Source: Microbacterium sp. CBA3102
GTDB lineage: Bacteria; Actinomycetota; Actinomycetes; Actinomycetales; Microbacteriaceae
Reading direction: 5' to 3'
DNA length: 64,000 nucleotides
NCBI RefSeq assembly: GCF_007954505.1
Contig: NZ_CP042412.1
Location: 620,001 to 684,000 of the forward strand
Part shown: positions 28,281-53,131 of the stretch, in pieces
How the letters are laid out: each line of letters starts with the position of its first letter
How positions within the stretch are numbered: position 1 is the stretch's first letter
Notes under the pieces: generated by a model
Seen by the model: only the letters and a program-made list of their open reading frames with translations
What the model was told of the DNA's origin: nothing
Database searches by the model: none
Program-made: the position numbers and the translations under genes

Positions 28281-28329
28281 CACTATTGATGTTTCAATCA
28301 AACACATAACAAAGTCATTGTTGTTATGC

Positions 28330-28354: not shown

Positions 28355-28387
28355 ACTCAGTGGACGCGTAGCACCAACAAACGGTGT

Positions 28388-33431
<5,044 letters not shown>

Positions 33432-33680
33432 AAAAGAAATGCATACGAACACCGGGAAAACGATGAACGCAGCGAGTTTGATGCTGACCAAAGAGACAAA
33501 TTCATTGCTGACTTCATCCATTGCCAGCCCCCGGAAGGGCTGGTCTTTGATCCAAAGGAATTCTCACCCAGCCGAAGCTAGACGAGGATAATTTGGCATT
33601 TGACAAGTGCACGCTGTTGAGTTCTCAAGGATCGGATGCTCCCACGACCCAGTCATCACAACCAGGCCCGCAGGGCAACT
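33432..33680 (-). other. 16S leader transcript
   Basis: This noncoding stretch precedes 16S. It holds a hairpin CCAGCCC-TTCCGG-GGGCTGG-type stem at about 33523-33542 and TTGAGAACTCAACAGCGTG at about 33608-33628 (minus strand), a leader element also echoed in the 16S-23S spacer. Both are likely antitermination or processing signals. Confidence 0.6.
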
Positions 33681-37000: not shown

Positions 37001-37027
37001 GACGGTGAGCGAGGTGTCGTCATGCAT
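34007..37027 (-). CDS. GH38 alpha-mannosidase
   Basis: A 1,006-residue class II alpha-mannosidase without signal peptide, so cytoplasmic. GHAHIDSAWLWPVRET near residue 263 gives the Zn-binding His and Asp; GGMWVESDTVMPTGESLVRQ near residue 337 holds the predicted nucleophile Asp; a further metal ligand is in HEFHDILPGTSI near residue 580. The C-terminal half is beta-rich as in Ams1-type enzymes. It would remove alpha-linked mannose (1,2/1,3/1,6) from imported glycans. The gene is divergent from a LacI regulator, and a 14-bp palindrome lies 80 bases upstream of its start. Confidence 0.92.
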   Translation of the reverse strand: MHDDTSLTVGRVKRVLEERIRPSIHSASVPLQVEIHELPGEPIAPAEGLALDYTAGSVGAPWGPAWGTTWFKLTGRVPSEWAGRKVEALIDLGFDVNMTGFQCEALAYRPGGTGSDQIPVKSINPRNQWVPIVEMAAGDEPVELYLEAASNPVLLDYHPFLPTQEGDILTSSKEPLYRARRMDLAVFEQGVFDLALDLEVLFELQAELPATSPRRMRILQAMDDALDVLDLQHIVATASDARARLAEVLAAPAEASAHRISAVGHAHIDSAWLWPVRETIRKVARTTSSMTALLEEQSEFRYGMSSAQQYAWIKEHRPEVWERVKAAVAEGRFLPLGGMWVESDTVMPTGESLVRQFSQGQRFFEREFGIRSKGVWLPDSFGYSPALPQLMRRAGFEWFFTQKISWNQQNVFPHHSFLWEGIDGSQVFTHFPSMDTYNSQLSGMEVAKAARQFKENRVSSRSIAPVGWGDGGGGTTREMTGKAERLRDLEGSAQVVWEHPDDFFDAARAELPHPAVWVGELYLELHRGTLTSQHATKALHRWAEHTLIEAELWAATDTVRTGAAYPQAEFDRLWQTVLLHEFHDILPGTSIAWVHREAVAVLTDVLSDAQDIAGAARRSLAGEGDRELRFEPTSVGRAGGQGHALGAAFLPEATSAAVSLSQEDDGWRLENELVSVRVSADGLIVSAVDKASGREAVAAGKAANLFQLHQDFPNMWDAWDIDRYYRNSVDDLTAVTSIEATMVGTVAKIVVVRPFSESTITQTILLAPGSRTVLLRNEIDWHETEKLLKLAFPLDIQAAHTEAETQFGYQSRVTHTNTSWEAAKFETSMHRFVLVREQDFGVALVNDSIYGYDTSREVSDDAVTTTVRLSLLRAPRFPDPDTDHGHHEIEVGFVIGADAEIATAEGIRINALPTVVRGAREVEPLVSVRGEGIVVSAVKLADDGSGDVIVRVYEALGRRTAGELTVGFEHHGVREVSLIEDDIEDARTGGDLRLRPFEVRTLRIAR

Positions 37028-37106: not shown

Positions 37107-37120
37107 CTAAAACGATCTAG
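37107..37120. promoter_or_regulatory. LacI-type operator, site 1 (GH38 / LacI intergenic)
   Basis: CTAAAACGATCTAG, with the central CG typical of LacI-family operators. It lies 80 bases before the GH38 start and 68 before the lacI-like start. One of five similar sites in the locus. Confidence 0.72.
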
Positions 37121-37159
37121 TGAAGAGTCTAGAACACACCCGATCCGCCTTCCACGGGG

Positions 37160-37187: not shown

Positions 37188-38216
37188 ATGAGTCCGGCGA
37201 AGCGCGTCACGATCGCCGACATCGCGCGCATGGCCGGGGTCTCCCCCGGCGCCGTCTCCTTCGCCTTGAACGGGCGCCCCGGAGTGAGCGAGGAGACCCG
37301 GCAACGGATCCTCGCCGTCGTCGAGGAGAACGGCTGGCAGCCGAGTTCAGCGGCACGCGCCCTCGTCGGCGCGCGGGCGAACACCGTCGGCTTCGCACTC
37401 GCGCGCCCCGCGCGCTCCCTCGGATCGGAGGCCTTCTTCACCGACCTCATCGCCGGTATCGAATCGCGTCTCTCCGAGAGCAAGGTCAGTCTGCAGCTGC
37501 GTCTGGTGGCGGACATCGCGGAGGAGATGGAGGTGCATCGGCAGTGGCGCTCGTCCAACCAGGTCGACGGTTTCATCTTCATCGACCCGCGCGACGACGA
37601 TCCCCGGGCCGACCGCATCGCCGCCCTCGACGCCCGCGCCGTGATGATCGGGTCGAAGCCGTCTCCCGACGGGACGGTGCCCAGCGTGTGGATCGGCGAC
37701 GACACGGTGGCGGAGACGCTCTACTCCTATCTCGCCGCACTCGGGCACGTGCACATCGCCTACGTGGCAGGACCGGCGGAGCTCGAACACACCCGGCTGC
37801 GGGCCGAGGTCTTGGAACGCCTGTCGGCCGACGGCGTGGAGGGCGAGGTCATCACCACCGACTTCTCCCCCGCCCGCGCCTCCGCCGTCACGCGGGCGCT
37901 GCTCTCCGGACGGCGGCGACCCACCGCGATCGTCTACGACAACGACGTGATGGCGGTCGCCGGTCTCCGCGTCGCACAGGAGATGGGACGCAGGGTTCCC
38001 CGCGACGTCTCGCTGGCCTCCTTCGACGACTCGGTCATCGCGGGGCTCATCAACCCGTCGATCACGGCGATGACGCGCGACACCTTCGAACTCGGCGAGC
38101 GCGCGGCCACCCTGCTGCTCCAGCAGATCGAAGCGGGCGCGAACCTGCCGAGCGTCGAAGGCCCGACTCCCGTGCTCACGGCGCGCGAGAGCACGGCCCC
38201 GCCCACGCGCACCGAC

Positions 38217-38219
<3 letters not shown>
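37188..38219 (+). CDS. LacI-family regulator of the N-glycan locus
   Basis: A 343-residue repressor. The N-terminal HTH and hinge are intact (VTIADIARMAGVSPGAVSFALN; ARALVGARANTVGFAL), followed by a periplasmic-binding-type effector domain up to about residue 330. Ribosome site AGGGTGAGGG precedes ATG 37188. The gene lies between GH38 (divergent) and GH5 (convergent), and sites matching one palindrome flank the whole locus, so it is the likely master regulator, probably relieved by a mannose-containing oligosaccharide. The inducer is inferred. Its stop codon lies in the first unit of the 16-bp array. Confidence 0.88.
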
Positions 38220-39626
<1,407 letters not shown>

Positions 39627-39640
39627 CTATAACGCTTGAG
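39627..39640. promoter_or_regulatory. LacI-type operator, site 3 (upstream of GH5)
   Basis: CTATAACGCTTGAG, 45 bases before the GH5 start. It matches the CTAWANCGNTNNAG pattern. Confidence 0.65.
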
Positions 39641-39694: not shown

Positions 39695-39708
39695 CTAAAG
39701 CGTTGTAG
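39695..39708. promoter_or_regulatory. LacI-type operator, site 4 (upstream of the ABC transporter)
   Basis: CTAAAGCGTTGTAG, 50 bases before the binding-protein start. It is a good dyad (arms CTA/TAG around CG) and matches the other sites. Confidence 0.68.
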
Positions 39709-39758
39709 TCCATCGACCGGACACCACGCGGAATCGCCCGCCTCGAGGAAGAAGCACG

Positions 39759-41060
39759 ATGAAATCTCCCACACGCATTGTCGCTCTGGCAGCCTTCAGC
39801 ATCGGCGTTCTGGCGCTGACCAGTTGCACGGGAGGCGGAGGGGCATCCGGCGCCTCGGGCCCCATCGACACGTCCGGCGAGCTGAGCGGCACGATCCAGT
39901 TCCAGACGTGGTCGCTCAAGAACGAGAAGTTCACCCCGTACTTCGAGGATCTGATCGATGCGTTCGAGAAGGAGCACCCGGACGTCACCGTCGAGTGGCT
40001 CGACCAGCCGGGAGACGGCTACCAGGAGAAGATCCTGAGCCAGGCGAACGCCGACACGCTCCCGGACGTGCTGAACCTGCCGCCGGACATCGCGTATCCC
40101 CTGGTCGCTGCGGGCAAGCTCGTCGACCTCCAGACGGCGGATCCCGAGCTGGAGTCCGCCTACAACGCCGGCGCGTGGGAGGCGTACAGCGCGTACCCGG
40201 GCATCGACGGCACCTACGGCCTGCCCTGGTACCTCTCCAGCGACGCCTCGTGGTGGAACCTCGCACAGCTCGCCCCGTACGGCGTCACGGAGGAGAACCT
40301 CCCGACCACGGTCGACGAGCTCCTCACCCTCGCCGAGGAGGTGGCCACGGAATCCGGCGGCAAGGTCCAGCTCCTGTCCTCCATCCCCGCGCTCGACACC
40401 TTCACGGCGGCGGGCATGGAGGTCATCAACGCCGACGGCGAGTTCGACTTCAACACCGACGAAGCCGCCGCGATCATCCAGAAGTACGCCGACGCCTACG
40501 CAGCCGGAGCCATGCCCGCCGAGGCCCTGACCGGCGACTACGGCGGAAACGCCGAAGCCTACATCCAGGAGAAGGTGGCCTTCACGACGGGCGGCACCGG
40601 CTTCACGACCGACCTGCAGAAGGATGCACCCGCACTGCTCGAGAACACGGTGGCGACCCCTCGCCTCGGGGTCGCACCCCTCTACGTGCAGGGTCTCAAC
40701 GTCTCGGCCGACTCCGACAACAAGGAGGCCGCACTCGCGTTCGCCGAGTTCGCGACGAACCAGGAGAACCAGGTGGCCTTCTCGTCGCTCGCCGTCGGCA
40801 CCGCTCCCGGCACGGCGAACGGCGGGGATGAGGTCGTCGAGAACATCGCGTCCTCCGTCACCGACGAGAAGCAGCTCGCGGCGATCGACACCGTGTTCGG
40901 CGCGATGAAGGATGCGAAGGCCCTGCCGTTCCAGTGGACCTCCGACATGGCGACCTACATGACCCAGCAGATCGCCCTCGCCGTCAACGGTGAAGCGGAC
41001 GCCAAGGCCCAGCTCGACAAGATCGTCGAGTACGCCAACGCCAACCGCGTGGACCAGTAA
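39759..41060 (+). CDS. Carbohydrate ABC transporter substrate-binding lipoprotein
   Basis: A 433-residue solute-binding protein. The signal peptide ends in lipobox LTSC with Cys23. The mature domain has the family-1 layout (TIQFQTWSLKNEKFTPYFEDLIDAF near residue 45; TYGLPWYLSS near residue 152). It likely captures the glycan released by the neighbouring endoglycosidase. First gene of a four-gene operon with two permeases and GH92. No ATPase gene is present, as is usual for actinobacterial sugar importers that share an MsiK-type ATPase. Confidence 0.9.
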   Translation: MKSPTRIVALAAFSIGVLALTSCTGGGGASGASGPIDTSGELSGTIQFQTWSLKNEKFTPYFEDLIDAFEKEHPDVTVEWLDQPGDGYQEKILSQANADTLPDVLNLPPDIAYPLVAAGKLVDLQTADPELESAYNAGAWEAYSAYPGIDGTYGLPWYLSSDASWWNLAQLAPYGVTEENLPTTVDELLTLAEEVATESGGKVQLLSSIPALDTFTAAGMEVINADGEFDFNTDEAAAIIQKYADAYAAGAMPAEALTGDYGGNAEAYIQEKVAFTTGGTGFTTDLQKDAPALLENTVATPRLGVAPLYVQGLNVSADSDNKEAALAFAEFATNQENQVAFSSLAVGTAPGTANGGDEVVENIASSVTDEKQLAAIDTVFGAMKDAKALPFQWTSDMATYMTQQIALAVNGEADAKAQLDKIVEYANANRVDQ

Positions 41061-41063
41061 GCC

Positions 41064-41990
41064 ATGCGCGCGAACACCGGCATCCGCGACCGCGGATCGT
41101 CGATGAGATCCCACCGATGGTTCACTCCGTGGCTGCTGCTGGGCCCCGCCGTCGCCTGGGTGCTGGTGTTCGCGCTCTGGCCGTTCCTCAACACGGTCTT
41201 CCTCAGCTTCACCGACGCCCGGCCGCTGCGGACGCCCGAGTTCGTGGGGGGAGCGAACTACGAGCGCATGTTCGGCGACGAGATGTTCTGGAATGCGCTG
41301 ACCACGTGCCTCATCTACGTGGTCGTGTGCGTGCCCCTGCTCACGATCCTCCCCCTCCTCCTCGCCCTGCTGGTGCAGAAGAAGCTCCCGGGCATCTCGT
41401 TCTTCCGCACCACGTTCTATTTCCCCGTGATCGCCTCGGTGGTCGTGGTCGCCCTCATCTGGACCTGGCTCTTCGACAGCCGCGGCATCATCAACCAGAC
41501 GCTGGAGTTCCTCGGTCTGATCGACAAGCCGATGGCCTTCCTCGTCGATCGCTGGCTGCTGCTGGGCTGCGCGATCCTGCTCACGGTCTGGAAGGGCTTG
41601 GGCTACTACATGGTCGTGTACCTCGCCGCGCTCGGGAACGTCGGCAAGGAGCTGCACGAGGCCGCGATGCTCGACGGCGCCGGGGCCTTCCGCCGCTTCC
41701 TCTCGGTCACGATCCCGTCGGTGCGAGGAGCCATGCTCCTCATCGCGGTGCTCATCGCCGTGTCCGCGATGCGGGTCTTCGCCGAACTCGACGTGCTGTC
41801 CAAGAGCACCGGAGGGCCCGGCGGGTACGACATGTCGCTCGTGATGCTCATCCGCCAGGTGGGGTCCGGCCTGAACGGGAACATCGGCTACGCCTCCGCG
41901 ATCAGCGTGGCGCTGTTCCTGCTCACCCTCGTGCCCCTCGCCGCGATCGCCGTCATGAACCGTGAGAAGAAGGCGAAGGTCTCCGCATGA
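41064..41990 (+). CDS. Carbohydrate ABC transporter permease (MalF/UgpA-type)
   Basis: A 308-residue membrane protein, 3 bases after the binding-protein gene. It has six hydrophobic segments, first WLLLGPAVAWVLVFALWPFL, and the EAA loop is ELHEAAMLDGAGAFRRFLSV near residue 200. It pairs with the following permease, whose start overlaps its stop by 4 bases. Confidence 0.9.
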   Translation: MRANTGIRDRGSSMRSHRWFTPWLLLGPAVAWVLVFALWPFLNTVFLSFTDARPLRTPEFVGGANYERMFGDEMFWNALTTCLIYVVVCVPLLTILPLLLALLVQKKLPGISFFRTTFYFPVIASVVVVALIWTWLFDSRGIINQTLEFLGLIDKPMAFLVDRWLLLGCAILLTVWKGLGYYMVVYLAALGNVGKELHEAAMLDGAGAFRRFLSVTIPSVRGAMLLIAVLIAVSAMRVFAELDVLSKSTGGPGGYDMSLVMLIRQVGSGLNGNIGYASAISVALFLLTLVPLAAIAVMNREKKAKVSA

Positions 41991-42922
41991 GCACCCTCAC
42001 CCCGCAGCGCCCGGCCGACGACACCCGGTCCCCCGACGGCCCGGTGTCGCCCACGCGCGAGCGCATCTTCCGCCGTCGCGGCTCCGGAGACTTCAGCACA
42101 CCGAGCCTCGGCGGACTGATCGGGCGCTATGCGCTGCTGCTGTTCGTCCTGTTCCTCGTGATCGGGCCGTTCATCTGGCAGCTGTCCACCTCTTTCAAGG
42201 GCCCGCAGGAGAACATCTACTCCTTCCCGCCCGAGCTCATCCCCCGCGAACCCACGCTGCAGAACTACAGCAAGGTCGCCGACATCGTCCCGGTCTACCT
42301 CTACGCCTGGCACTCGCTGCTCGTCTCGGTCGGGACCGTCGTGAGCAACGTCGTGCTGTCGACGTTCGCCGGATACGCGCTGGGATGCATGCGATTCCGG
42401 GGCAAGTGGATCGTGATGGGGATCCTCCTGTCCACTCTGCTCTTCCCCGGCGAGGTGACGGTGACCAGCAACTTCCTCACCATCCGCGCACTGGGACTCG
42501 CGGACACCCTCTGGGGCGTCTTCCTCCCCGGAGCGATCAGCGCGATGAACGTGCTCCTTATCGCCACCGCGTGCCGCATGATCCCGAAGGACGTGCTGGA
42601 CGCCGCGACGGTCGACGGGGCCACCACGTGGCAGCGCATCCGCCACATCGTCTGGCCGAACATCCGCGGCATGGTCTCCGTGGTCGCGATCTTCGCCTTC
42701 ATCGGTGCCTGGGACGACTACCTGTGGCCGCTCATCGTCCTGTCCGATCCCTCGAAGTACACGCTGACGGTGGGCATGGCCTACCTCAACAGCAGCTTCT
42801 CCGTGGATCCGCGCCTCATCGCGGCCGGCACCATGATCGCCCTCGTGCCGATCGTGATCATGTTCTCCTTCACGCAGCGGTTCTTCTTCAAGGGCGTGCA
42901 GGAGGGCGCGATCAAGGGGTGA
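41987..42922 (+). CDS. Carbohydrate ABC transporter permease (MalG/UgpE-type)
   Basis: A 311-residue membrane protein with an unusually long polar N-terminus (residues 1-45, rich in R, P and S) before the first helix. The EAA loop is LDAATVDGATTWQRIRHIVW near residue 205, and the C-terminus ends RFFFKGVQEGAIKG, the characteristic tail of this family. It is followed, with a 4-base overlap, by the GH92 gene. Confidence 0.9.
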   Translation: MSTLTPQRPADDTRSPDGPVSPTRERIFRRRGSGDFSTPSLGGLIGRYALLLFVLFLVIGPFIWQLSTSFKGPQENIYSFPPELIPREPTLQNYSKVADIVPVYLYAWHSLLVSVGTVVSNVVLSTFAGYALGCMRFRGKWIVMGILLSTLLFPGEVTVTSNFLTIRALGLADTLWGVFLPGAISAMNVLLIATACRMIPKDVLDAATVDGATTWQRIRHIVWPNIRGMVSVVAIFAFIGAWDDYLWPLIVLSDPSKYTLTVGMAYLNSSFSVDPRLIAAGTMIALVPIVIMFSFTQRFFFKGVQEGAIKG

Positions 42923-45900
42923 ACGCCGTGCAGCTCCTCCCGGCGGACGGGCCGGCCGATCCCCCGTCCTCCCGCCCGCGCTCGGGAGTGCTCCCGGGTG
43001 CGGTGTTCGCCTTCGCCTTCGACCCGACCGGCGGGGTGCAGCGGATCGATGCCCCGGGTCTCGCCGACATCGAGATCACACCCCACACGGTGCTGCACTG
43101 GGCCTTCTACGCCGACGGGCCGGCAGCGACCCTGGCGCCGCACGCCGCCCTCGCGGTTTCGGCCGACGTGCGCTTCGACGACGGATCCCGGCTGAGCGAC
43201 GACTCCGCGGTCCGCGACCGCTACGACTTCCCGATCACCGCCGATGCCCAGTTCGCCGCGCGCTGGAGCATGCCGGAGCAGTGGAATGCGGACACCGTCT
43301 CGCTCGCTCCCCACGCCGGAGGACGCGGCACGGTCGAACTCGTGCTCGGCGCCGACGCGCTGTCCGACGAGGCGGATGCCGCAGGCGTCACCGGCTTCGT
43401 GCAGGTCCTGGTCGAGGAGCGGATCGCACCGGGCGTTCCCACCCTCACCCCCGTCGACCGCGTCGACACCCGACGCGGCACGCATGCGGGACCGCGCTTC
43501 TCGCGGGGCAACACCATCCCCGCCGTGGCTCTCCCGCACGGGTTCACCTTCGTCACGCCGGCCACCGACGCAGCCGACTCCCGGTGGCCGTACCGGCCCT
43601 TCGTGCACGACGACGCGCAGGGACGCCGACTCGAAGCCCTCCAGTTCTCCCACCAGCCGAGTCCCTGGATCGGCGATCGCTCGGTGCTGCAGCTGATGCC
43701 CTATCTGGCAGATCCTGTGTCGAGCCGCGAGCGACGCCGGCGCTGGATCGTGCCGGGGTCCGAACGCGCGCGTCCGCACGAGTACGCGGCGGACCTCGGC
43801 GATGGTCTGACCGTCGAGATGACCGCGACGATGCACGCTGCCGCCTTCCGGGTGCGGTGCGCGGACCCCGACGCCCCGATCGGCTTCGTCATCGATCAGC
43901 TCACCGATGAGGGCCAGCTCGCCTGGACCGGCGCAGACGCGTTCGAGGGATGGATCCCGGAGGGCTCGGCGGACTGGGGCAACGCGCCGCGGTGCTTCTT
44001 CGCCGGCACCGCCCTGCGCCGCACGGACGACGGCGTGATCGAGCGCGGCCCGCTCGATGACGACGGACGCGGTCGGGTCGCCGGGTATGTGGGCGGACGC
44101 GGATCGCTCGAACTACGGATCGGGATCTCCTTCCTCTCCGTCGCCCAGGCCCGGCACGCCCTGGAGACCGAGGCGCCCCCGACCCGTCCCTTCGAGGAGT
44201 TGCGCGCCGAGGGCGCCGCGATCTGGAATCGCCTGCTGGGCCGGGTGTCGATCCCCCCGCTGCCGGCGGAGGAGATCCCCTACCGCGGTCTCGCCGATGA
44301 GGAGCACCGCGCCCGGATCGCCGCAGCACTGCATCGGATGCACCTGTACCCCAACAGCGCCGGGGAGAACGTCGGCACCGCGGCGGAGCCGCGCTGGCGA
44401 TTCGCGGATGTCTTCTCCGACTCCGTCGACACGGTCGCCGACGGGGAACTCGTCGTGAACAACGGCTACTGGGACACCTACCGCACCGAGTGGCCGGCGC
44501 TCGCCCTGCTCGATCCTGCATCGACCGGCAGGCTCCTCGACGGCCAGCTCGAACAGTATCGACGCGGAGGATGGATGGCGCGGTGGAGCGCGCCCGGCTA
44601 CGTGGACAGCATGGTCGGCACGTCCAGCGACCAGATCTTCGCCGATGCCGCGCGCTGGGGTGTGAGCTTCGACCGTGAGACCGCGTTCGACAGCGGATGG
44701 CGCAACGCGTGCGAGCCGGGTCCGGATGCGCGACGGGGACGCAAGGGCATCGATCTCGGCCGATTCACCGGCTACATCTCGTCGGAGACGCCCGAGGGCA
44801 TGAGCTGGAGCATCGAGAACGCACTCAGCGATGCCGCCCTCGGCCGGTTCGCCCTGCAGCTCGCCGTCGGCGCCGGATCGGCCGAGGAAGCCGCTCGCTA
44901 CCGTTGCTTCGCACGCTACTTCGCCAATCGCTCCCGGTCATATCGACAGCTCTTCGACGACGGCACCGGGTTCTTCCGCGGGCGGGATTCGCGCGGGGCG
45001 TTCGCTCCGGAGTTCGACCCGCGGGCCTGGGGCGGGGACAACGTCGAGACGAACGCCTGGGGGATGTCGGTGGGGGCGGTGCACGACGGAGTCGGGCTCG
45101 CCGCCCTCCACGGCGGACCTGTCGGGCTCGGCCGTCACCTCGATGCCCTGTTCGCCGAACCCGAGACCGCGGACGAACGGTTCGCCGGCGCATACGGCAC
45201 CGTGATCCATGAGCAACGGGAGGCCAGGGCCCTGCGCTCCGGGATGTGCGCGCTCTCCAACCAGCCCGCACACCACATCCCGTTCATGTACGCGTTCAGC
45301 GACCGCCCGTGGCAGTCCGCTCCGCTCGTCCATGAGTTCGCGGGGCGGCTGTTCGCCGGGGCCCACATCGGTCAGGGCTTCCCGGGCGACGAGGACAACG
45401 GAGAGATGAGCGCCTGGTGGCTGTGGGGCGCACTCGGGCTGTACCCGCTGGAGCTCGCATCGGGCCAGCTGCGGATCGGATCGCCGCTCTTCGACGACAT
45501 CCGGGTGGATCGGGGGGACGGCTCCTCCCTCCGGATCCGCTCCCGGCGACGGTCCGCCGGGGCCCACATCCTGCAGGAGGCATCTCTCGACGACGTATCC
45601 CTCGCCTCCGCCGACCTCCCGATCGATGCGCTCGTGGGGGATGCCGTCCTCGACCTCACGTTCGGGGACGACCCGGCGTCCGCGCTCGAGAAGTCCGGGC
45701 GCTCTCCCGTCCTCCGTGCGGTCCCGTGGTGCGCCGATCTGACCGCGACCGAGGGCGAGGTGATCGCCTCGGCTCTCGTCGCCCACCCCGAGCGGGTGTT
45801 CGACGACGGGGCTCCCTCGGGTCGTCCTGGCGTCGTCCTGCGCCCCGGCGACTGGGTGGGGTGGCGGTTCCCCGAGGCTCGCGGGATCAGCGACGTCACG

Positions 45901-46119
45901 GTGACGACGACCGCCTCCGCCTCCTCTGCCGCGCTGCACTGGGAGGCCCTCGGCCCGGATGGGCACTGGCGGACCCTGGCGCCGACGCATCGGGAAGAAC
46001 TGCGGGCCGACCGCACGACGCCGTTCACCCTGGTCGAGCGGACCGTGACCCCGGCGCTCCGCGTGCGTGCGGAGTCCGAGGTCACGATCCGTCAGATCGA
46101 GCTCTTCGACCTCGTGTGA
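42919..46119 (+). CDS. GH92 alpha-mannosidase (predicted cytoplasmic)
   Basis: A 1,066-residue Ca-dependent exo-alpha-mannosidase, start GTG 42919 overlapping the permease stop (GTGA); GTG 42928 is an alternative. An N-terminal beta-sandwich is followed by an (alpha/alpha)6 domain with YWDTYRTEWPALALLDP near residue 515, SMVGTSSDQIFADA near residue 565 and the catalytic-loop hallmark GFPGDEDNGEMSAWWLWGALGLYPL near residue 820, where Asp and Glu act as bases. A further C-terminal beta domain (about 950-1066) may bind carbohydrate. There is no signal peptide, unlike many GH92s. GH92 members trim alpha-1,2-, 1,3- or 1,6-mannose from high-mannose glycans. It is translationally coupled to the importer. 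Confidence 0.92.
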   Translation: MNAVQLLPADGPADPPSSRPRSGVLPGAVFAFAFDPTGGVQRIDAPGLADIEITPHTVLHWAFYADGPAATLAPHAALAVSADVRFDDGSRLSDDSAVRDRYDFPITADAQFAARWSMPEQWNADTVSLAPHAGGRGTVELVLGADALSDEADAAGVTGFVQVLVEERIAPGVPTLTPVDRVDTRRGTHAGPRFSRGNTIPAVALPHGFTFVTPATDAADSRWPYRPFVHDDAQGRRLEALQFSHQPSPWIGDRSVLQLMPYLADPVSSRERRRRWIVPGSERARPHEYAADLGDGLTVEMTATMHAAAFRVRCADPDAPIGFVIDQLTDEGQLAWTGADAFEGWIPEGSADWGNAPRCFFAGTALRRTDDGVIERGPLDDDGRGRVAGYVGGRGSLELRIGISFLSVAQARHALETEAPPTRPFEELRAEGAAIWNRLLGRVSIPPLPAEEIPYRGLADEEHRARIAAALHRMHLYPNSAGENVGTAAEPRWRFADVFSDSVDTVADGELVVNNGYWDTYRTEWPALALLDPASTGRLLDGQLEQYRRGGWMARWSAPGYVDSMVGTSSDQIFADAARWGVSFDRETAFDSGWRNACEPGPDARRGRKGIDLGRFTGYISSETPEGMSWSIENALSDAALGRFALQLAVGAGSAEEAARYRCFARYFANRSRSYRQLFDDGTGFFRGRDSRGAFAPEFDPRAWGGDNVETNAWGMSVGAVHDGVGLAALHGGPVGLGRHLDALFAEPETADERFAGAYGTVIHEQREARALRSGMCALSNQPAHHIPFMYAFSDRPWQSAPLVHEFAGRLFAGAHIGQGFPGDEDNGEMSAWWLWGALGLYPLELASGQLRIGSPLFDDIRVDRGDGSSLRIRSRRRSAGAHILQEASLDDVSLASADLPIDALVGDAVLDLTFGDDPASALEKSGRSPVLRAVPWCADLTATEGEVIASALVAHPERVFDDGAPSGRPGVVLRPGDWVGWRFPEARGISDVTVTTTASASSAALHWEALGPDGHWRTLAPTHREELRADRTTPFTLVERTVTPALRVRAESEVTIRQIELFDLV

Positions 46120-47328
46120 TCACCCGGTGAGGGTGAAGAGCACCTCGGTGCGGTTTCCCGACGCGTCGAACACCTCGAGCACGTTGGTTCCGGCCACCGC
46201 ACCGAAGACACCCGGCTTCACGAAGTTCAGGTCGCTCCAGGCGTTATCGGTCAGATCCTTCGGCACACCGTTGACCGACAGCCTGTCGACCTTGCCGGCG
46301 TCGTACAGCTTGAAGCTGACCTTCGAGTACGCGTCGGGAGATCCCGTCGTGAACGACTCCCCCGGCTTCACGGTCACGGTCGGAGCCGTGCGATCCCGCG
46401 GAGCGGCGCGATACTCGGTCGGCTCCCCCTTGAGCTCCTGCGTGATCCCCGAGAGGTACGCCGACTGATCCGTCGCGGTCAGGTTGTACGCCACGTAGAC
46501 CCCGTATCCGTCGGCGACCGTGCGTCGGGCGAAGTCCGCGGCGGTCGCGGCGCTCGTGTTCGCCAGGTCGATCGCAGCGGCACCGAGGCGGGTGCGATCT
46601 TCGAGCCCGGGCACCGTGGGGGCGTCGTACGTCGGGTAATAGGGGTTCCAGGCGTAGTCGATCACACCGTCGACGTCGAACGCATCGAAGTCGGTGGTGG
46701 TGTAGGACGGGCCGATCGCGTAGAGGCTGATGATCTTGTCCGATCCCAGGCGCTCGCGCAGCGCGGTCGCCAGCCAGCCGAACGACTGCGCGTTGGGCTG
46801 CGGGGTGCCGTTCGCGCCGTAGTTCGTCCACTCGTCGTCGAAGTCGATCCCATCGAGGCCGTAGGTCGTCACCGCATCGGCCAGCTCTGCGGCGAAGGCG
46901 TCCGCCGCGGCGAACGAGGTGAAGTTCGCGAAACCCGCACCCTGGTGGTTGCCGAGCACGGAGAGCAGCACCTTCGTGCCCTGTGCCTGCAGCGGACGGA
47001 TCTGGTTCTCCGCGTCCTGGAGCGTCTCGGTGACCCGATCATTCAGGTGCAGATACGCCTTCTCTCCGTCGTAGTTGATGTTGGCGGCGAAGATCATCGC
47101 GAGGTCGACGGCGGCGCGCCCGGAATCCGCGAGGGTGTAGTCGGCGACGTTGGCTAAATCGTTCGAGTTCACCTCGACATAGACGGCGAGCTGGGGGTCC
47201 GCCTCCACCCCCTCGGCAGCGGTCGCGGGTGAGGCGGTCGCGACGAAGGACATCGCGATCACCGCACTCGCGGCGACAGTGAATCCCTGTCGTAGACGGT
47301 GAAGCTTCCTGGAATGTGGCCGACTCAT
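46120..47328 (-). CDS. Secreted GH18 endo-beta-N-acetylglucosaminidase, Endo H-like
   Basis: A 402-residue protein with a clear secretion signal (basic residues 1-14, hydrophobic 17-30, likely cleavage after ATASPATAA near 38). The catalytic domain (about 45-310) follows Streptomyces Endo H closely: LGNHQGAGFANF (125-136), DGIDFDDEWTNYG (159-171) with acid Glu166 and Asp164, KIISLYAIGPSY, and YAWNPYYPTY. This enzyme cleaves between the two core GlcNAc residues of high-mannose N-glycans. A C-terminal domain (about 320-402) is beta-rich with DRTAPTVTVKPG, typical of an Ig-like or surface-attachment module. It is tail to tail with GH92 with no gap. Confidence 0.92.
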   Translation of the reverse strand: MSRPHSRKLHRLRQGFTVAASAVIAMSFVATASPATAAEGVEADPQLAVYVEVNSNDLANVADYTLADSGRAAVDLAMIFAANINYDGEKAYLHLNDRVTETLQDAENQIRPLQAQGTKVLLSVLGNHQGAGFANFTSFAAADAFAAELADAVTTYGLDGIDFDDEWTNYGANGTPQPNAQSFGWLATALRERLGSDKIISLYAIGPSYTTTDFDAFDVDGVIDYAWNPYYPTYDAPTVPGLEDRTRLGAAAIDLANTSAATAADFARRTVADGYGVYVAYNLTATDQSAYLSGITQELKGEPTEYRAAPRDRTAPTVTVKPGESFTTGSPDAYSKVSFKLYDAGKVDRLSVNGVPKDLTDNAWSDLNFVKPGVFGAVAGTNVLEVFDASGNRTEVLFTLTG

Positions 47329-47391
47329 GGCAGATCGTCTCCCTCTTCATCGAAATCGAGATCAGGCCGCATCAGAGCGACCTGCCGCCGA

Positions 47392-47405
47392 CTATATCGC
47401 TTAAG
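47392..47405. promoter_or_regulatory. LacI-type operator, site 5 (upstream of the Endo H-like gene)
   Basis: CTATATCGCTTAAG, 63 bases before the endoglycosidase start. It matches sites 1-4 at the conserved positions and ties the secreted enzyme to the same regulon. Confidence 0.66.
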
Positions 47406-47554
47406 TAGAAGCCTGTACAGATCGGACGAAGGACGACACCTCTCTGTTCCTGCACCCGGTCAGCGATCCGTGGGTTGTACACGTGCGCCGGGTTCTCCAC
47501 GCGCCGGAACCGGAATACCGTGACATCGTGACCTTCCGGAACGACACTGGAGGC

Positions 47555-47800
47555 ATGCGCTTGAACGACCCGCAGGTATGGACGCTGATCGGAGTGTTCG
47601 CCGCCGTCATGCTCGGCGGGATGACGCTCATGACCACGCAGCTCAGTCGCATCATCCGCGCCGAGACCGATCGCATCCACGGCACGCTCTCCGCGCGCAT
47701 CGACGCCGTCGTCGACCGCCTTGACCGCATCGAGGCGAAGGTCGACGACCTCGACAAGGAGCTCACGAACCTCGCCGTGCGGTTCTGGCGCTCGCAGTGA
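47555..47800 (+). CDS. Small membrane protein with a coiled-coil tail
   Basis: An 81-residue protein; I start at ATG 47555 because GGAGG lies 5 bases upstream, although the frame is open from 47483. One transmembrane helix (about 9-28, LIGVFAAVMLGGMTLM) is followed by a heptad-rich coiled coil with IDAVVDRLDRIEAKVDDLDKE. No function is assigned. It lies between the N-glycan locus and the isomerase/kinase operon and is likely unrelated to both. Confidence 0.7.
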   Translation: MRLNDPQVWTLIGVFAAVMLGGMTLMTTQLSRIIRAETDRIHGTLSARIDAVVDRLDRIEAKVDDLDKELTNLAVRFWRSQ

Positions 47801-47817: not shown

Positions 47818-47837
47818 TCACCCCTCAGAGGGTGACG
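47818..47837. terminator. Hairpin at the end of the isomerase gene
   Basis: GTCACCC (47818-47824) pairs with GGGTGAC (47831-47837) around CTCAGA. The right arm is the last coding triplets of the minus-strand gene and the stop codon lies in the loop. It may end transcription from both sides. Confidence 0.45.
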
Positions 47838-49459
47838 TCGCCCACCAGATTCACCTGGATGCCCATCCCCGCGAACATCGAGGCTTTCGCGATGAGTGCC
47901 CGGTCGGCCGTCTCGGCATCCGGTGCGTAGACGAGCTGCGCGTGGTTGGCCTTGTGGCGGGCCATGAACTGATCCCGCGAGACGCCGTGCAGCACCACGT
48001 GCGCGATCGGCCACTCCGGGTTCGTGGCATCCTTCCGGCGCTGCGTCTCGTCGGCCGGGAGCTCGACGACCGAGGCACGGAAGATGTCGGCCTGCAGGAC
48101 GCCGTCGGCGATGAACACCCGCGACAGCACGATCTCCCCCGGCTGGGAGACCCCGTTGATCGTCGCACCGCCCGCCGGGAAGAACACGTGGCCCTGACGC
48201 CATCCCTCCGCGTTCTGCCACCCGCCCAGGTGCGAGGCGGGGACGGAGCCGGAGATCTCGTAGACCCACACGAACTCCCCGTCGTACTCCTCACCCCACC
48301 GCACGTCGTGCAGCGTGTTGTCCGGCACGAGTCCCATTGCACGCCACACGCGGTCGGTCACCAGCGCGTCGACCGCCACGCCCTCATCCGCTTCGTTGAA
48401 GTGCGGGAAGGCGCGTCCCTCGTGCAGCACCCGGGCACCGTCGCGCGACCTCACCGGCGGGCGCTCCGTCGAGTTCAGGATGCCCTCGGCCAGGTCGGAC
48501 GCCGGCACCAGGTCCTTCAGACCCTGCTGGTACTGGATCCCGACGGCGTCGAGGCCGAAGTCGTCCGCGATACGAAGCGCGGCGATGTACATCTTCAACT
48601 GCCACTGCACCTGCTCGCGCGTGAGCTCGGTGGCGGCATCCGTCCCGAAGCGGAACGTCATGCCCGCATCGATCAGCCAGTCGTACGCGGCGTCCGCCTC
48701 GTCTTCGGTGACGGTGAGCATCTCGGCGTAGAGCGCCGACTGCGACAGCCGCTCCTTGTAGATGCCCGTCTTGTTGAGCAGCTCGTCGTCGAAGATCGCG
48801 TTGTACATGCCCATGCAGCCCTCGTCGAACACGCCGATGATGGCCTTCTCGGCGAGCAGCTCCGCGGCGAGCGCCTCGCCCAACTGCTTCTCGGGGCTGT
48901 CCGGCAGCTCCGGCAGGGGACGCACGTGCGAGGCGTCGTGCGCGATGGAGCCCGTCTCGGTCCACTCCCGGATGCCGTTCCGGAACCACTCGTCGGTGAA
49001 GTCGACCGACCAGGTCGTGGCGTACGGCTTGCCCATCTTGGTGAGGCCCGCGTTCAAGCCGAGGAGGCCGACGAGGCCGGGCCAGTCGCCGGCGAAGTTC
49101 GCGACCGTGAGGATCGGGCCCTCGTGGGTGCGCAGACCGGCGAGCACATGGTGGGAGTACTGCCAGTTGGCGATCGCGACGATCAGAGGCGCGTCGACCG
49201 GGATGCTCCGGAAGACCTCGAGCCCCATGCGCTGGCTGGAGATGAAGCCGTGACCGGTGGCGGGATCGACGCCGAAGGGACGGATCACCTGCCACCCGAG
49301 GTCGTCGAGCACACCGGTGACCCCGGTCTCGAGCTCGACCTGAGTGGGCCAGCCCGCGACGTTCGCCGACTCTCGCAGATCACCCGAGGTGATGAGGTAC
49401 GCCGTCTTCGGGGCGGCAGCCGGACGCGATGCCGGGGCCGGCAGGGTGTAGGTGGTCAT
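47825..49459 (-). CDS. L-fucose/L-arabinose isomerase-family protein
   Basis: A 544-residue cytosolic protein. It opens KTAYLITSGDLRESANVAGW, followed by ANWQYSHHVLAGL near residue 98 and GVFDEGCMGMYNAIFDDELL near residue 208, which fits the fucose/arabinose isomerase fold where Glu and Asp ligands hold Mn. C-terminal metal-proximal residues (HVFFPAGGATINGVSQPGE) are also preserved. The sugar is not defined by sequence. It is coupled by a 4-base overlap to an FGGY kinase, so an aldose-to-ketose step before phosphorylation is likely. Confidence 0.8.
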   Translation of the reverse strand: MTTYTLPAPASRPAAAPKTAYLITSGDLRESANVAGWPTQVELETGVTGVLDDLGWQVIRPFGVDPATGHGFISSQRMGLEVFRSIPVDAPLIVAIANWQYSHHVLAGLRTHEGPILTVANFAGDWPGLVGLLGLNAGLTKMGKPYATTWSVDFTDEWFRNGIREWTETGSIAHDASHVRPLPELPDSPEKQLGEALAAELLAEKAIIGVFDEGCMGMYNAIFDDELLNKTGIYKERLSQSALYAEMLTVTEDEADAAYDWLIDAGMTFRFGTDAATELTREQVQWQLKMYIAALRIADDFGLDAVGIQYQQGLKDLVPASDLAEGILNSTERPPVRSRDGARVLHEGRAFPHFNEADEGVAVDALVTDRVWRAMGLVPDNTLHDVRWGEEYDGEFVWVYEISGSVPASHLGGWQNAEGWRQGHVFFPAGGATINGVSQPGEIVLSRVFIADGVLQADIFRASVVELPADETQRRKDATNPEWPIAHVVLHGVSRDQFMARHKANHAQLVYAPDAETADRALIAKASMFAGMGIQVNLVGDVTL

Positions 49460-50979
49460 GATTCCTCCGGTGTTGGGGTCGGGGTGAGCGGGGAGCCGCC
49501 TCGCTGTGCGGCCGCGAGTTCGTGCACCACGGGTCGGGATCCCTCATAGAGCCGCCGGTAGCGCGCGAACAGGGAGTCATAGAACGGTCGCAACCCGTCA
49601 TCCGGGCGGATCCGCTCTGACATGGGGTTCCACTCCGTGATCGCCGGGCGCTCGTCGGGCACCGCCGTCGCGGTCGCCGCGAGAAAGGCCGCTCCGTAGC
49701 TCGCGCCGATCGTGGTCGCAGGCACCTCCTGGACGAGGCCGGTGACGTCGGACACGACCTGGAGCCAAAGCCGACCCTGTGTTCCGCCCCCCACCGCGAC
49801 GATGCGGCGGATGTCGGCGCCGGCCGCCCGCATGGTCTCGACGTTGTGCCGCACACCGAGTGCGGTCGCTTCTAGCATCGCTCGGTAGAGGTCGCCGCGC
49901 GTGTGCTCGAGTGTGAGCCCGGCGATCACGCCCCGGGCGTCCGGGTCCTGGATCGGCGTGCGCTCGCCCGCGAAGTAGGGCAGCACGAGAAGGCCGCGCG
50001 CTCCGGCACCCGACGCGGCAGCCTCGGCGAGCAGTTCAGGATAGTCGGCACCGGTCAGCCCTTTGAGCCAGGCGGTCAGAGCCCCGGATGTCGACAGCCC
50101 GCCGGCGAGGTTGCGCGTACCGGCGAAGGCCCCCGCCGTGGTCCACATGGACGGGGTCCGCAGGGTCTCTTCACCGGTGGCCACGAGGAACATGGTCGTG
50201 CCGTACATCAGCATCAGGTCGCCGGGCTCGTGCGCGCCGACGCTGACAGCTTCCGTCCAGGCATCGATCGTCCCCGCGATCACGGGCGTTCCCAGAGGGA
50301 TCCCGGTGACCGATTCTGCCTCAGCCGTCACCTCTCCGGCGATCTCCCCCGCCCACTGCAGGCGCGGCTGCTCGATGCCCCCGGCGTACCGCTCCCACCA
50401 CGGGTCGTGCCACCGCTCCCCCTCGATGTCGTAGAGAGGAGAAACCTGGCTGGCGGACTGGTGATCGAGCACGTACGCTCCCGTGAGCCGACGGACGAGC
50501 CAGGACGCCGGCATGTACAGACGTCGTGCGCGTTCCCATGCCTCGGGCTCCTCCTCCGCAACCCACGCGATCTTCGGTCCGCCCGCCTGCGAGGTCAGTG
50601 TCGACCCTCCGACACGCGTGATCTCCTCGACACCGAGCTCATGCGTGAGACGCTCGATCTGCGCGGTCGAACGGGTGTCGACCCCGTACAGGATCGCGGG
50701 GCGCACGGGGGCGTCCCGTTCATCGACGAGCAGGACACAGGGTCCCATGCCACTGACCCCCACCCCCACGATCTCGGCCTCCGGGACTCCGGCGAGCAGT
50801 TCGCGCACGATCGCGACGAACTCCTCCCACCAGATCGCGGCGTCCATCTCGACCCAGCCGGAGTGCGGTCGTTCCACGTCATGCGCCCTGGTCGCGGATG
50901 CCGCGATGACGCCGTCGGGCCCCACCAGCACGCCCTTGCTGCTGGACGTGCCGATGTCCACCCCGAGGGTGCAGCGCAT
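49456..50979 (-). CDS. FGGY-family sugar kinase, xylulokinase-like
   Basis: A 507-residue kinase from ATG 50979; AGGAGGA lies upstream, and the 32 further codons of open frame look noncoding. Phosphate-1 loop LGVDIGTSSSKGVLV (5-19), catalytic Asp239 in AGTIDAWTEA, and phosphate-2 AVGGGTQGRLWLQ near residue 415 are present. The family phosphorylates ketoses such as D-xylulose or L-fuculose. It pairs with the isomerase in one operon, with a GAAATCGATTTC palindrome 56 bases upstream. Confidence 0.87.
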   Translation of the reverse strand: MRCTLGVDIGTSSSKGVLVGPDGVIAASATRAHDVERPHSGWVEMDAAIWWEEFVAIVRELLAGVPEAEIVGVGVSGMGPCVLLVDERDAPVRPAILYGVDTRSTAQIERLTHELGVEEITRVGGSTLTSQAGGPKIAWVAEEEPEAWERARRLYMPASWLVRRLTGAYVLDHQSASQVSPLYDIEGERWHDPWWERYAGGIEQPRLQWAGEIAGEVTAEAESVTGIPLGTPVIAGTIDAWTEAVSVGAHEPGDLMLMYGTTMFLVATGEETLRTPSMWTTAGAFAGTRNLAGGLSTSGALTAWLKGLTGADYPELLAEAAASGAGARGLLVLPYFAGERTPIQDPDARGVIAGLTLEHTRGDLYRAMLEATALGVRHNVETMRAAGADIRRIVAVGGGTQGRLWLQVVSDVTGLVQEVPATTIGASYGAAFLAATATAVPDERPAITEWNPMSERIRPDDGLRPFYDSLFARYRRLYEGSRPVVHELAAAQRGGSPLTPTPTPEES

Positions 50980-51034
50980 GGAGTCCTCCTCCTGCCGGGA
51001 CGACCGAGTCCGTGGCTTGTTCGACACTGTACGC

Positions 51035-51046
51035 GAAATCGATTTC
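51035..51046. promoter_or_regulatory. LacI-type operator upstream of the kinase-isomerase operon
   Basis: GAAATCGATTTC, a perfect 12-bp palindrome with central CG, 56 bases before the kinase start. A related half-conserved site precedes the adjacent LacI gene. Confidence 0.7.
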
Positions 51047-51098
51047 ATGATGCAAGGGCGTGCGCGCTCCCGCATCGACCCTTCCGGTCGCGGTCCGC

Positions 51099-52085
51099 TC
51101 AGCGCCGGGTGGCGCTGGCCGGCTGGACCTCGTTGCGCAGCACGACAGTGCGAGCCGGTTGCGTATCGCCGTCGATCCGATCGAGCAACATCCGCGCCGC
51201 GGTCACGCCCATATGCCGCGCGGGCAAGCGCACCACGGTCACGGCTGTCGGAGAAAGCGTCGTGAACGGCAGAGAACCGATGACCGCCACGCCGACGTCC
51301 GGCGGAGTGAGCCCATGCTCGGTGAGCACCTGGATAGCTCCCACACCGATGAGGTTGTTGCCCGCGACGACCGCATCGGGCGGTTCGCGAAGCGCGAGCA
51401 GCTCTTCCATCGCCGACCGACCACCGTCGACGCGGAACGTCGTGAAGCGCTCGAGCTCGTCGAGGGCGTGACCGGGGTGCGCCGAGGCGAGCACAGAGCG
51501 CCAGCCCGCGGCGCGTTCAGCGGCGGTGTCGATGTGCGCGGGGCCCCCGATGTAGGCGATGCGGCGGTGCCCGGCGTCTATCAGGCTCCGGGTGGCCGAT
51601 GTCCCCGCCGACCGATTGGCCATCATGACGCTGTCGATGTCGTAGCTCGTGCTGCGATCGACGGCCACGACAGGGCGGCCGGTGGCGAGGACACCGTCGA
51701 GGTCGGAGCGCTCATCGGCTGTCGCGATGATCACTCCGGACATGTTCTCGGCGATCGCGATCCGCAGATAGGTGGCCTCCTTCTCCACCTGCGCGTCCGA
51801 GTTGCAGAGCACGACCGAGTATCCGGCCTCGGAGGCGACATCCTCCACGCCGCGCGCCATCTCGGTGAAGTAGGGATTCTCGATGTCGGGGATCACGAGC
51901 GCGATGACCTCGGAACTCTGGCGCCGTAGCGTGCGGGCGGTGCGATTGGGAGTGAACTTCAGCTTCTCCGCGGCGTTGCGCACGGCCGCCACCTTCTCCT
52001 CGGACACGTTCGTCCCGTTGAACACGCGCGAGACTGTCGCGGGCGAGACCCCCGCGAGTTCGGCGACGTCGTAGATCGTTGCCAT
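51099..52085 (-). CDS. LacI-family regulator of the isomerase-kinase operon
   Basis: A 328-residue repressor. I start at ATG 52085 (MATIYDVAELAGVSPATVSRVF), since the 60 codons before it are not LacI-like. HTH residues 1-25 and hinge RTARTLRRQSSEVIALVIPD are followed by the effector domain with DRSTSYDIDSVMMANRSAG and VAVIGSLPFTTLSPTAVTVV. It lies directly upstream of the kinase gene and a palindrome lies before both, so it most likely represses them. Confidence 0.88.
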   Translation of the reverse strand: MATIYDVAELAGVSPATVSRVFNGTNVSEEKVAAVRNAAEKLKFTPNRTARTLRRQSSEVIALVIPDIENPYFTEMARGVEDVASEAGYSVVLCNSDAQVEKEATYLRIAIAENMSGVIIATADERSDLDGVLATGRPVVAVDRSTSYDIDSVMMANRSAGTSATRSLIDAGHRRIAYIGGPAHIDTAAERAAGWRSVLASAHPGHALDELERFTTFRVDGGRSAMEELLALREPPDAVVAGNNLIGVGAIQVLTEHGLTPPDVGVAVIGSLPFTTLSPTAVTVVRLPARHMGVTAARMLLDRIDGDTQPARTVVLRNEVQPASATRR

Positions 52086-52177
52086 GCGCTCCCCTGCTCC
52101 CCGCTGACACCTACTCCCACCGACCGCGGCCGGTGCTGCAACAGTATCGCGCGGGGACCGGAATTCCTTGCGCGGGT

Positions 52178-52189
52178 GAAATCGATGCC
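52178..52189. promoter_or_regulatory. Partial operator upstream of the LacI gene
   Basis: GAAATCGATGCC keeps one arm of the GAAATCGATTTC palindrome and part of the other, 93 bases before the regulator. It suggests weak autoregulation. Confidence 0.45.
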
Positions 52190-52261
52190 AGGGTCGCAAA
52201 GCCGCTACCGAGAGCTCTCCGCCTGCGCGTGCGCACCAGCGTCGCCTCACCGGCAGCCGTC

Positions 52262-53131
52262 TCACCGGTGCGCGGCCACCACCTCGGCGACGGCGGTGCG
52301 CTCGGCGGCACTCGGCTCGGCGATCGCCATGCGGCAGTGCGTGTCGACCACGTCGAGCACGCGGTAGGCCTCTTTCATGCGCGCCATGTCGCCGCCGATG
52401 AGGGCGACCACATCGTCGACCGCGGCCTGCGCAGCGGTGATGGCTGCCGCATCTCCGGCCCGCCCGGCGTCGGCGAGGGCGCGGAACGGTTTCGGCGTCA
52501 CGGATGACACCCCGGAGACGACACCCTGGGCGCCCACCTCGACGGCGGCGATCAGGTCGCGGTCGGCGCCGGTGTAGAGCTCGAAGTCGGCGGGCACGAC
52601 GGCGCGGTAGGCGGCGATGTCGTCGAGTGAGAGCTCGCTGATCTTGGCTCCCACCACGTTGGGCAGCTCCGCGAGCCGCACGAGGAGCTCCGGCGACACC
52701 GGGTTTCCACTCCGCGCCGGGTAGATGTACACGTACAGGCGCCCGTCGCCGACGGCGTCCGACACCGCACGGTAGTACTCGAAGATCGAGCCGTCCGTCG
52801 CCTTCAGGTAGTAGGGCGTGAGCGCGGCGAACTCGACGGCGCCCAGCTCACGGGCGATGCGGGTCAGGCGCACGGCCTCGAAGGTACTGGGCCGACCGAC
52901 ATGCACGACCACGCGCATCCGCTCCTTCAACTCGGCCAGAGCGGCTTCCACGATGGCCGCGAACTCGCCGGCATCCACAGCGGGGAACTCCCCCGTCGTT
53001 CCGAGCACGAAGGCCCCCTCGTTCCCCGAGTCGGCGACGAATCGGAAGATCGCACGCGAACCCTCGATGTCGAGGGTGCCGTCGCGGTGGAACGCGGTGG
53101 GCACGGCGGTCAGGATGTCGTAGCGGGTCAC
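52262..53131 (-). CDS. DapA-family aldolase/dehydratase
   Basis: A 289-residue TIM-barrel lyase from GTG 53131, overlapping the tctA stop by 4 bases. It has GTTGEFPAVD (44-53), the Tyr in YVYIYP (Tyr137) and Schiff-base Lys163 (VVGAKIS). Family members include dihydrodipicolinate synthase, N-acetylneuraminate lyase, 2-keto-3-deoxygluconate aldolase and 5-dehydro-4-deoxyglucarate dehydratase. As it sits in a tripartite-transporter operon rather than with lysine genes, a sugar-acid or related catabolic substrate is more likely than DapA itself. Confidence 0.82.
   Translation of the reverse strand: MTRYDILTAVPTAFHRDGTLDIEGSRAIFRFVADSGNEGAFVLGTTGEFPAVDAGEFAAIVEAALAELKERMRVVVHVGRPSTFEAVRLTRIARELGAVEFAALTPYYLKATDGSIFEYYRAVSDAVGDGRLYVYIYPARSGNPVSPELLVRLAELPNVVGAKISELSLDDIAAYRAVVPADFELYTGADRDLIAAVEVGAQGVVSGVSSVTPKPFRALADAGRAGDAAAITAAQAAVDDVVALIGGDMARMKEAYRVLDVVDTHCRMAIAEPSAAERTAVAEVVAAHR

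Follow-up and report, generated by a model that had tools for sequence, protein, structure and literature searches.

What does an Endo H-type endoglycosidase do in Microbacterium sp. CBA3102, and what does the additional domain at its C terminus contribute? Both questions are raised by a single gene in the 64,000-nucleotide stretch of DNA analyzed here, the whole of which is referred to as the window. A preliminary description, made from the sequence alone, had proposed that this gene encodes an Endo H homologue with intact catalytic acids, a signal peptide and an added C-terminal module with a possible binding or surface function. The gene, its neighbors and its relatives in other genomes were examined.

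The Endo H gene and its catalytic site

The features assigned to the gene and its product, in window coordinates, are:

46120..47328, minus strand: Endo H gene, 402 amino acids
47215..47328, minus strand: signal peptide, approximately residues 1-38, with probable cleavage after ATAA (read directly from the sequence)
46417..47202, minus strand: GH18 barrel of the Endo H type, residues 43-304 (NF045482; 6ve1, 1edt, 1c90)
46831..46854, minus strand: catalytic motif DGIDFDDE, residues 159-166 (sequence alignment)
46123..46404, minus strand: C-terminal Ig-like module, residues 309-402 (AlphaFold2, pLDDT 95.8, pTM 0.87)

Translation of the plus strand over 46120..47328 is interrupted by stops. The minus-strand product has a basic start, a hydrophobic stretch and an A-x-A motif, all read directly from the sequence, in line with the signal peptide that had been proposed. 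Residues 43-304 scored 363.1 bits with NCBIfam model NF045482, above its curated cut-off of 300, and residues 39-45 to 302 aligned with solved Streptomyces Endo H chains (6ve1, 1edt) at E values of 5e-86 to 6e-84. When the full-length model was submitted to Foldseek, 1c90 and 1edt were matched, with 51-52% identity to Streptomyces Endo H in the structure-based alignments. Alignment to the solved chains placed D164 and E166 opposite D130 and E132 of the Streptomyces enzyme, mutants of which appear in PDB titles, and the motif DGIDFDDE was found to start at residue 159, just as the preliminary description had it; LGNHQGAGFANF begins at residue 125 of the homologue. An Endo H barrel was present in at least 54 of 366 genomes of the genus, and both catalytic acids are kept in 54 of these 54 relatives. 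Judged by its sequence, the 402-residue protein is thus an Endo H homologue with both catalytic acids intact.

Conservation extends to other parts of the barrel. F80, which corresponds to F44 of Streptomyces Endo H at the end of strand 2, is invariant in all 54 relatives, and the FAANIN hairpin sequence that follows it is conserved in 53, with an A to S change in the remaining one. F44 has been proposed as important in substrate recognition, according to the accessible text of PMC3408457, which also places Y133 of Streptomyces Endo H next to the proton donor. In 51 of the 54 relatives the proton donor is followed by W; because this residue replaces Y133, substrate specificity may differ. The Microbacterium enzyme therefore shares with Streptomyces plicatus Endo H (GH18; 1edt, NF045482) the barrel, both catalytic acids and the FAANIN hairpin, and differs from it by this W and by a 94-residue Ig-like module; on the Microbacterium side, the gene is set in the operator-marked locus described below.

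The surrounding locus and its operator

The genes around Endo H were assigned as follows:

34007..37027, minus strand: GH38 alpha-mannosidase, 1006 amino acids (Pfam; 7ufr)
37188..38219, plus strand: LacI-family regulator (Pfam)
39759..41060, plus strand: sugar-binding protein of an ABC importer (Pfam)
41064..41990, plus strand: ABC permease 1 (Pfam)
41987..42922, plus strand: ABC permease 2 (Pfam)
42919..46119, plus strand: GH92 alpha-mannosidase, start codon approximate (Pfam; 7nsn)
47825..49459, minus strand: sugar isomerase-like protein, Fucose_iso_C (Pfam, related loci)
49456..51075, minus strand: FGGY sugar kinase (Pfam, related loci)
51099..52265, minus strand: second LacI-family regulator (Pfam, related loci)

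The closest solved chains to the GH38 protein were 7ufr, 7ufs, 7uft and 7ufu (E 1.2e-233 for 7ufr, with the others down to 3e-210), which we take to be Bifidobacterium longum N-glycan mannosidases. The GH92 protein matched the GH92 alpha-1,2-mannosidase 7nsn at E 6.9e-161, and the best solved match for the sugar-binding protein was 6wpm. GH92 on the plus strand and Endo H on the minus strand are convergent, with stop codons that abut at 46117-46122 and 0 bases between them, so that there is no space for a terminator and the two mRNAs may overlap. In relatives with the convergent arrangement this gap ranges from -17 to 81 bases, except in L093 (653) and L094 (410); in nine relatives the importer, GH92 and Endo H lie in order on one strand.

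Nine neighbors were counted in the 53 related loci that were fetched, with homologues accepted at E ≤1e-25. GH92 was found near Endo H in 51 of the 53, L109 and L125 being the exceptions. An ABC permease turned up in 50; of the three loci without one (L094, L109 and L112), L094 and L112 are on short contigs. None of the nine neighbors was detected in L109. Taken from gene content, Endo H probably sits in a conserved locus for the utilization of high-mannose N-glycans. For the step at the last Man-beta-1,4-GlcNAc bond, a search that covered GH130 and GH125 returned one GH130 gene, approximately 150 kb from the locus, as a possible candidate; no match was found for GH125, a 1,6-alpha-mannosidase family.

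Three further observations concern the surroundings. The isomerase-like, FGGY kinase and second LacI genes accompany Endo H in many relatives, not in all. A 105-residue frame at 47483-47800, divergent from Endo H, has a membrane stretch and a tail that looks coiled-coil-like by eye, and no Pfam family was matched by it at E ≤0.001. An rRNA operon (16S, 23S, 5S) occupies 28162-33432 on the minus strand.

The same neighbors bear on the substrate. GH18 includes chitinases, and few Actinomycetota possess an Endo H relative (of 396 genomes sampled, 2 held one over the cut-off, both in Microbacterium), so the barrel might act on chitin or a bacterial wall polymer with N-glycans not its natural substrate. 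The score, however, exceeds the Endo H cut-off, the lone chitinase model that matched did so with 27.4 of 750 bits, and the conserved neighbors are alpha-mannosidases and an importer, with 0 chitin genes among the nine examined; this substrate assignment is accordingly regarded as very improbable.

When upstream regions in the locus were compared, a LacI-like operator site, CTNAARCGNTNTAGTS, was spotted by eye. Its copies in the window, all located by pattern match, are:

37107..37122, plus strand: operator between GH38 and LacI
39625..39640, minus strand: first of two operators ahead of the ABC importer
39695..39710, plus strand: second of two operators ahead of the ABC importer
47390..47405, minus strand: operator CTTAAGCGATATAGTC, upstream of Endo H

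These four, all at the Endo H locus, are the only exact copies in the genome (3.886 Mb). Their exactness is by construction, because the sites of the window themselves supplied the pattern. No copy with one mismatch was found in the 3.886 Mb. The 31 copies with two mismatches are taken as background because a reversed control gave 98 at ≤2 mismatches, and a fifth operator-like match at 47152-47167, inside the Endo H gene and with two mismatches, was treated in the same way. No operator precedes the isomerase-like, FGGY kinase and second LacI genes (47825-52265) in the window. A k-mer comparison of the upstream regions returned only ribosome-binding-site-like and unspecific words, and a palindrome scan flagged just an overlapping piece of one operator site (37100).

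The pattern was then searched at ≤1 mismatch in 54 loci of the genus (938 kb, window included). Of 129 matches, 128 lie between -30 and 260 bases upstream of the estimated start of a locus gene, with the operator found before Endo H in 39 of 54 loci and before the binding protein in 44 of 50; these counts are not independent, given the window-derived pattern, shared ancestry and near-palindromic sites that can be counted on both strands. The reversed pattern gave 0 matches in the 54 loci. No operator precedes Endo H in 15 of the 54 loci (L095-L103 and L104-L109). In L095-L103 no promoter of its own is expected for Endo H, which follows GH92 on the same strand; L104-L109 are without the site despite another arrangement, and in L104-L108 the binding protein is not preceded by one either. 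Near-palindromic copies also occur in two other genera, approximately 60 bases ahead of where Endo H probably starts. From its position and from the operator type, we infer that the LacI protein encoded at 37188..38219 binds this site, and the operator shared upstream of GH38/LacI, the importer and Endo H indicates a gene set that is apparently under joint control.

These components can be assembled into a scheme, drawn by analogy with other bacteria that possess GH18 or GH85, GH92, GH38 and importers, and what we infer in it extends to enzymatic activity, secretion, import, LacI repression and the function of the module. Secreted Endo H would cut high-mannose, and probably also hybrid, N-glycans between the two GlcNAc residues of the core, so that the glycoprotein retains one of them. 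The released Man(n)GlcNAc would enter the cell via the adjoining ABC importer and would be trimmed inside by the GH92 and GH38 alpha-mannosidases, with the LacI repressor controlling importer, GH38 and Endo H together through the shared operator. The Ig-like module would be an accessory outside the catalytic machinery, most likely one that keeps the enzyme on or close to the cell envelope, or that stabilizes and spaces it. For the whole of this scheme, from a secreted and intact Endo H through import, trimming and LacI control to a removable accessory module, we estimate a probability of approximately 0.72.

Import and trimming of N-glycans has been described in other bacteria, as far as the accessible portions of the sources report it (PMC5215778, PMC6160142, PMC10154615, PMC11180146), and three of these systems allow a closer comparison. 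Bacteroides thetaiotaomicron BT3987 likewise combines a high-mannose GH18 with an accessory beta-sandwich and has GH92 in its locus (PMC11180146 and PMC10154615, accessible text); its accessory domain (DUF1735) is N-terminal and of another family, and it belongs to a PUL-type system, in contrast to the ABC importer here. Streptococcus pneumoniae also possesses an endoglycosidase, GH92 and an ABC importer (EndoD, SpGH92, NgtS-P1-P2), whereas its endoglycosidase is GH85, its genes are at several places in the genome, and no LacI operator of this kind is described in the available part of PMC5215778. The N-glycan locus of Cutibacterium acnes (GH38/GH5_18) shares with the window the phylum Actinomycetota, GH38 and sugar ABC importer genes. 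In the text of PMC6160142 that is accessible, however, its GH18 resembles Endo T most closely and has no secretion signal, the locus includes a GH5_18 beta-mannosidase and GH20, and the term "GH92" is absent. The surrounding locus and its operator, which the preliminary description did not take up, tell more about the role of the enzyme.

The C-terminal module and its other carriers

Matches to Streptomyces Endo H end at residue 302-304, which places the C-terminal part outside the classical enzyme, as had been supposed. The extra beta-rich domain had been put at approximately 80 residues; it is indeed all-beta and was modeled with confidence, and its length was found to be 94 residues (309-402). 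The structure prediction that had been suggested for this part was run with AlphaFold2 on 83 aligned sequences and returned an Ig-like beta-sandwich at a pLDDT of 95.8. Contacts between barrel and module could not be read from the full-length AlphaFold2 model, since the barrel was modeled poorly there (mean pLDDT 64, blocks 33-84, six Endo H rows), and this model was set aside for that use.

For the window copy, no Pfam or NCBIfam Ig family was matched at E ≤1, and at gathering score it was unmatched by the known Pfam Ig-like families Big_13, Big_3_3 and HYR. Across 83 copies, no Pfam or NCBIfam family could be assigned, the best being HYR at E 0.0015, which was matched at E ≤1 in 16 of the 83. 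By structure, the best VIA hit was 5z1a (Z 8.0 over 76 residues, 2.6 Å), followed closely by numerous Fn3, PKD and Ig chains, and Foldseek against the PDB gave a best E of 4e-3 and nothing under 0.001. On the predicted model, the module is an Ig/Fn3/PKD-like two-sheet beta-sandwich, a fold class that implies no function. It resembles the C-terminal domain of RemA from type 9 secretion (8gl6), which is likewise a small C-terminal Ig-like beta-sandwich (VIA Z 7.1 over 69 residues, no higher than Fn3 or PKD domains). Type 9 C-terminal domains cap many unrelated secreted proteins and are known from Bacteroidota. The fold hits to type 9 C-terminal domains and to carbohydrate-binding modules were not taken as membership, because ordinary Fn3 and PKD domains reach the same Z values.

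Sequence searches with the module in solved structures, plasmids, phages and PHROGs found no relative, and of 78 stretches in viral contigs that fit the pattern, 0 were confirmed. A predicted structure in BFVD, A0A8S5SEL4, an uncharacterized protein from a Myoviridae contig, aligned with the module at TM 0.91 and 36% identity, far above the other viral-library hits; the module family may extend beyond Actinomycetota.

The module is not confined to Endo H. In the source genome a protein of 1565 amino acids (L033:588-5282), which also has a glucose/sorbosone dehydrogenase-like domain and a laminin G-like domain, ends in two tandem copies. When the full protein was used as query across the genus, 130 of 366 genomes gave a match, many through the module alone. 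Forty non-Endo H proteins were fetched from among the strongest matches, and in every one the module is terminal, with 0-9 residues after it. Of the 149 named loci with the module, the best 80, which include six Endo H, have it ≤6 residues from the end in 78 cases. A strict C-terminal rule was nonetheless rejected: 81 residues follow the module in L181 and 105 in L192, where they look by eye like a chitin-binding CBM5, and further non-terminal copies were seen in L228/L231 (one protein, 107 residues after) and L235 (weak copies, 150 residues after). Many large secreted proteins have two or three tandem copies (L162, L181, L182, L189 and others).

Carriers among the named loci include members of Microbacterium, Agromyces, Isoptericola, Janibacter, Paraoerskovia, Nakamurella, Phycicoccus, Cellulosimicrobium, Demequina and Actinocorallia. 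The distribution is patchy, with the module in 11 of the 299 genomes sampled from the family and in 4 of 392 sampled across the phylum, all four in Microbacteriaceae. Partner domains include glycosidases (GH20, GH43, GH59, GH141-type and rhamnosidase domains) as well as phosphodiesterases, metallophosphoesterases, sulfatase-like proteins, M1, M6 and S8 peptidases, an amidase and sugar-dehydrogenase-like proteins. A crude signal-peptide rule was satisfied by 61 of 79 module-bearing proteins, and in several of the 18 failures the frame is open upstream of the likely start. Copies attached to unrelated partners are 54-77% identical to the window copy and share invariant residues, with W, S, D and N residues strongly conserved. 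Sequence comparison thus identifies the tail as a general C-terminal module of secreted proteins that is not specific to Endo H.

This breadth bears on the proposal that the tail acts as a carbohydrate-binding module, directing Endo H to glycoprotein or to glycan of the cell wall. The conserved W, S, D and N residues would suit such a role, Ig-like and Fn3-like folds occur in some binding proteins (2c26, from carbohydrate-binding modules, and the starch adherence protein Sas6 were among the fold hits), and one Endo H gene of another genus of the family (L271:1093-2430) carries a ricin-type lectin domain in the corresponding position, which indicates that binding modules do get attached to such barrels. 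However, the same module is found on peptidases, an amidase, phosphoesterases, sulfatase-like and sugar-dehydrogenase-like proteins with no obvious common substrate, a single substrate for all partners is implausible, and the module comes and goes while the locus persists. Carbohydrate binding is therefore considered unlikely, and of the binding or surface function that had been suggested, it is glycan-specific binding that has become less likely now that the tail is seen to be common to unrelated secreted proteins.

Gain, loss and role of the tail

The C termini of the 54 Endo H proteins fall into several states. The module is present in 18, 22 end directly after the barrel, and 9 have another module; of the rest, one has a Big_13-like Ig domain (E 9.5e-5, below the Pfam cut-off), two have remnants and two are unclear (L088 and L094, left out of the state count). 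The tail is therefore far from universal among Endo H relatives, whereas its presence in all of them would have counted against the preliminary description. The nine replacements (L095-L103) are an unnamed module of approximately 95 residues in place of the Ig-like one, for which no Pfam match was obtained at E ≤1 in the two copies scanned (L095 and L099). In the remnant L073, whose barrel is 94% identical to that of the window, 213 bases of the module core have been deleted in frame, and both break points follow GAG. Outside Microbacterium, none of the eight Endo H genes over the cut-off in other genera of the family carries the module: seven stop 1-2 residues past the barrel, and the eighth is the lectin-bearing gene described above. 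The tail is thus removable, being present, absent, partly deleted or swapped among the 54 Endo H genes.

The 19 modules on Endo H (the 18 above and L094) form one clade with an SH-aLRT of 98 in a tree of 93 columns and 131 rows with 65 open forks. On the barrel tree, in which 21 of 51 forks are open, nine changes of module label are required, five of these being forced by well-supported branches. With a single module clade set against a scattered distribution on the barrel tree, the simplest reading suggests one gain of the module by Endo H followed by repeated loss or replacement.

For 17 module-bearing Endo H genes, synonymous changes outnumber non-synonymous changes in both the barrel and the module. 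Omega values for ten pairs ranged from 0.11 to 0.34 in the module and from 0.04 to 0.22 in the barrel, and median pN/pS over the 136 pairs of the 17 genes was 0.44 and 0.17, respectively; the module evolves faster than the barrel yet is still constrained. Given the invariant catalytic acids and the synonymous excess in both parts, the combination of Endo H with its tail is more than chance.

Faster evolution and loss in some relatives are what would be anticipated if the module simply stabilizes or spaces the enzyme, as the N-terminal beta-sandwich of BT3987 is reported to do; removal of the latter left kinetics similar and lowered the Tm from 52 to 41 °C (accessible text of PMC11180146). Set against this are the many Endo H relatives that manage without the module, and the invariant residues across unrelated partners and nearly fixed C-terminal position, which seem to exceed the needs of a generic spacer. 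We hold such a role as a tentative possibility, somewhat short of an even chance. The position of the module at the end of unrelated enzymes leads us to regard a role that does not depend on the substrate, either envelope-related or stabilizing, as more likely than glycan binding; no known envelope anchor motif was noticed. A more specific and rather doubtful version would make the module an undescribed C-terminal tag for sorting or retention in Micrococcales and allied Actinomycetota. A common partner at the envelope would recognize it, much as happens with the C-terminal domains of the Bacteroidota type 9 system; Endo H would have acquired the tag a single time and lost it again wherever free diffusion of the enzyme was an advantage.

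The Endo H enzyme itself is of a known kind. In the open literature, no paper was found on a Microbacterium Endo H of this type, on the module or on the operator, and the combination of enzyme, unnamed module family and operator-marked locus was not found there either; Microbacterium testaceum is mentioned, in the accessible text of PMC3408457, for a different, Endo T-like group.

At least 149 stretches of a single genome collection belong to the module family, which has no name in Pfam or NCBIfam. Natural Endo H barrels with the tail, without it and with swapped tails, together with the in-frame deletion, form a series for measuring what an accessory domain contributes. Endo H is a standard laboratory enzyme, and its natural role in environmental Actinomycetota has, to our knowledge, been little discussed; the compact, conserved locus and its apparently dedicated operator give it a directly testable one, the scavenging of high-mannose glycans from eukaryotic glycoproteins.
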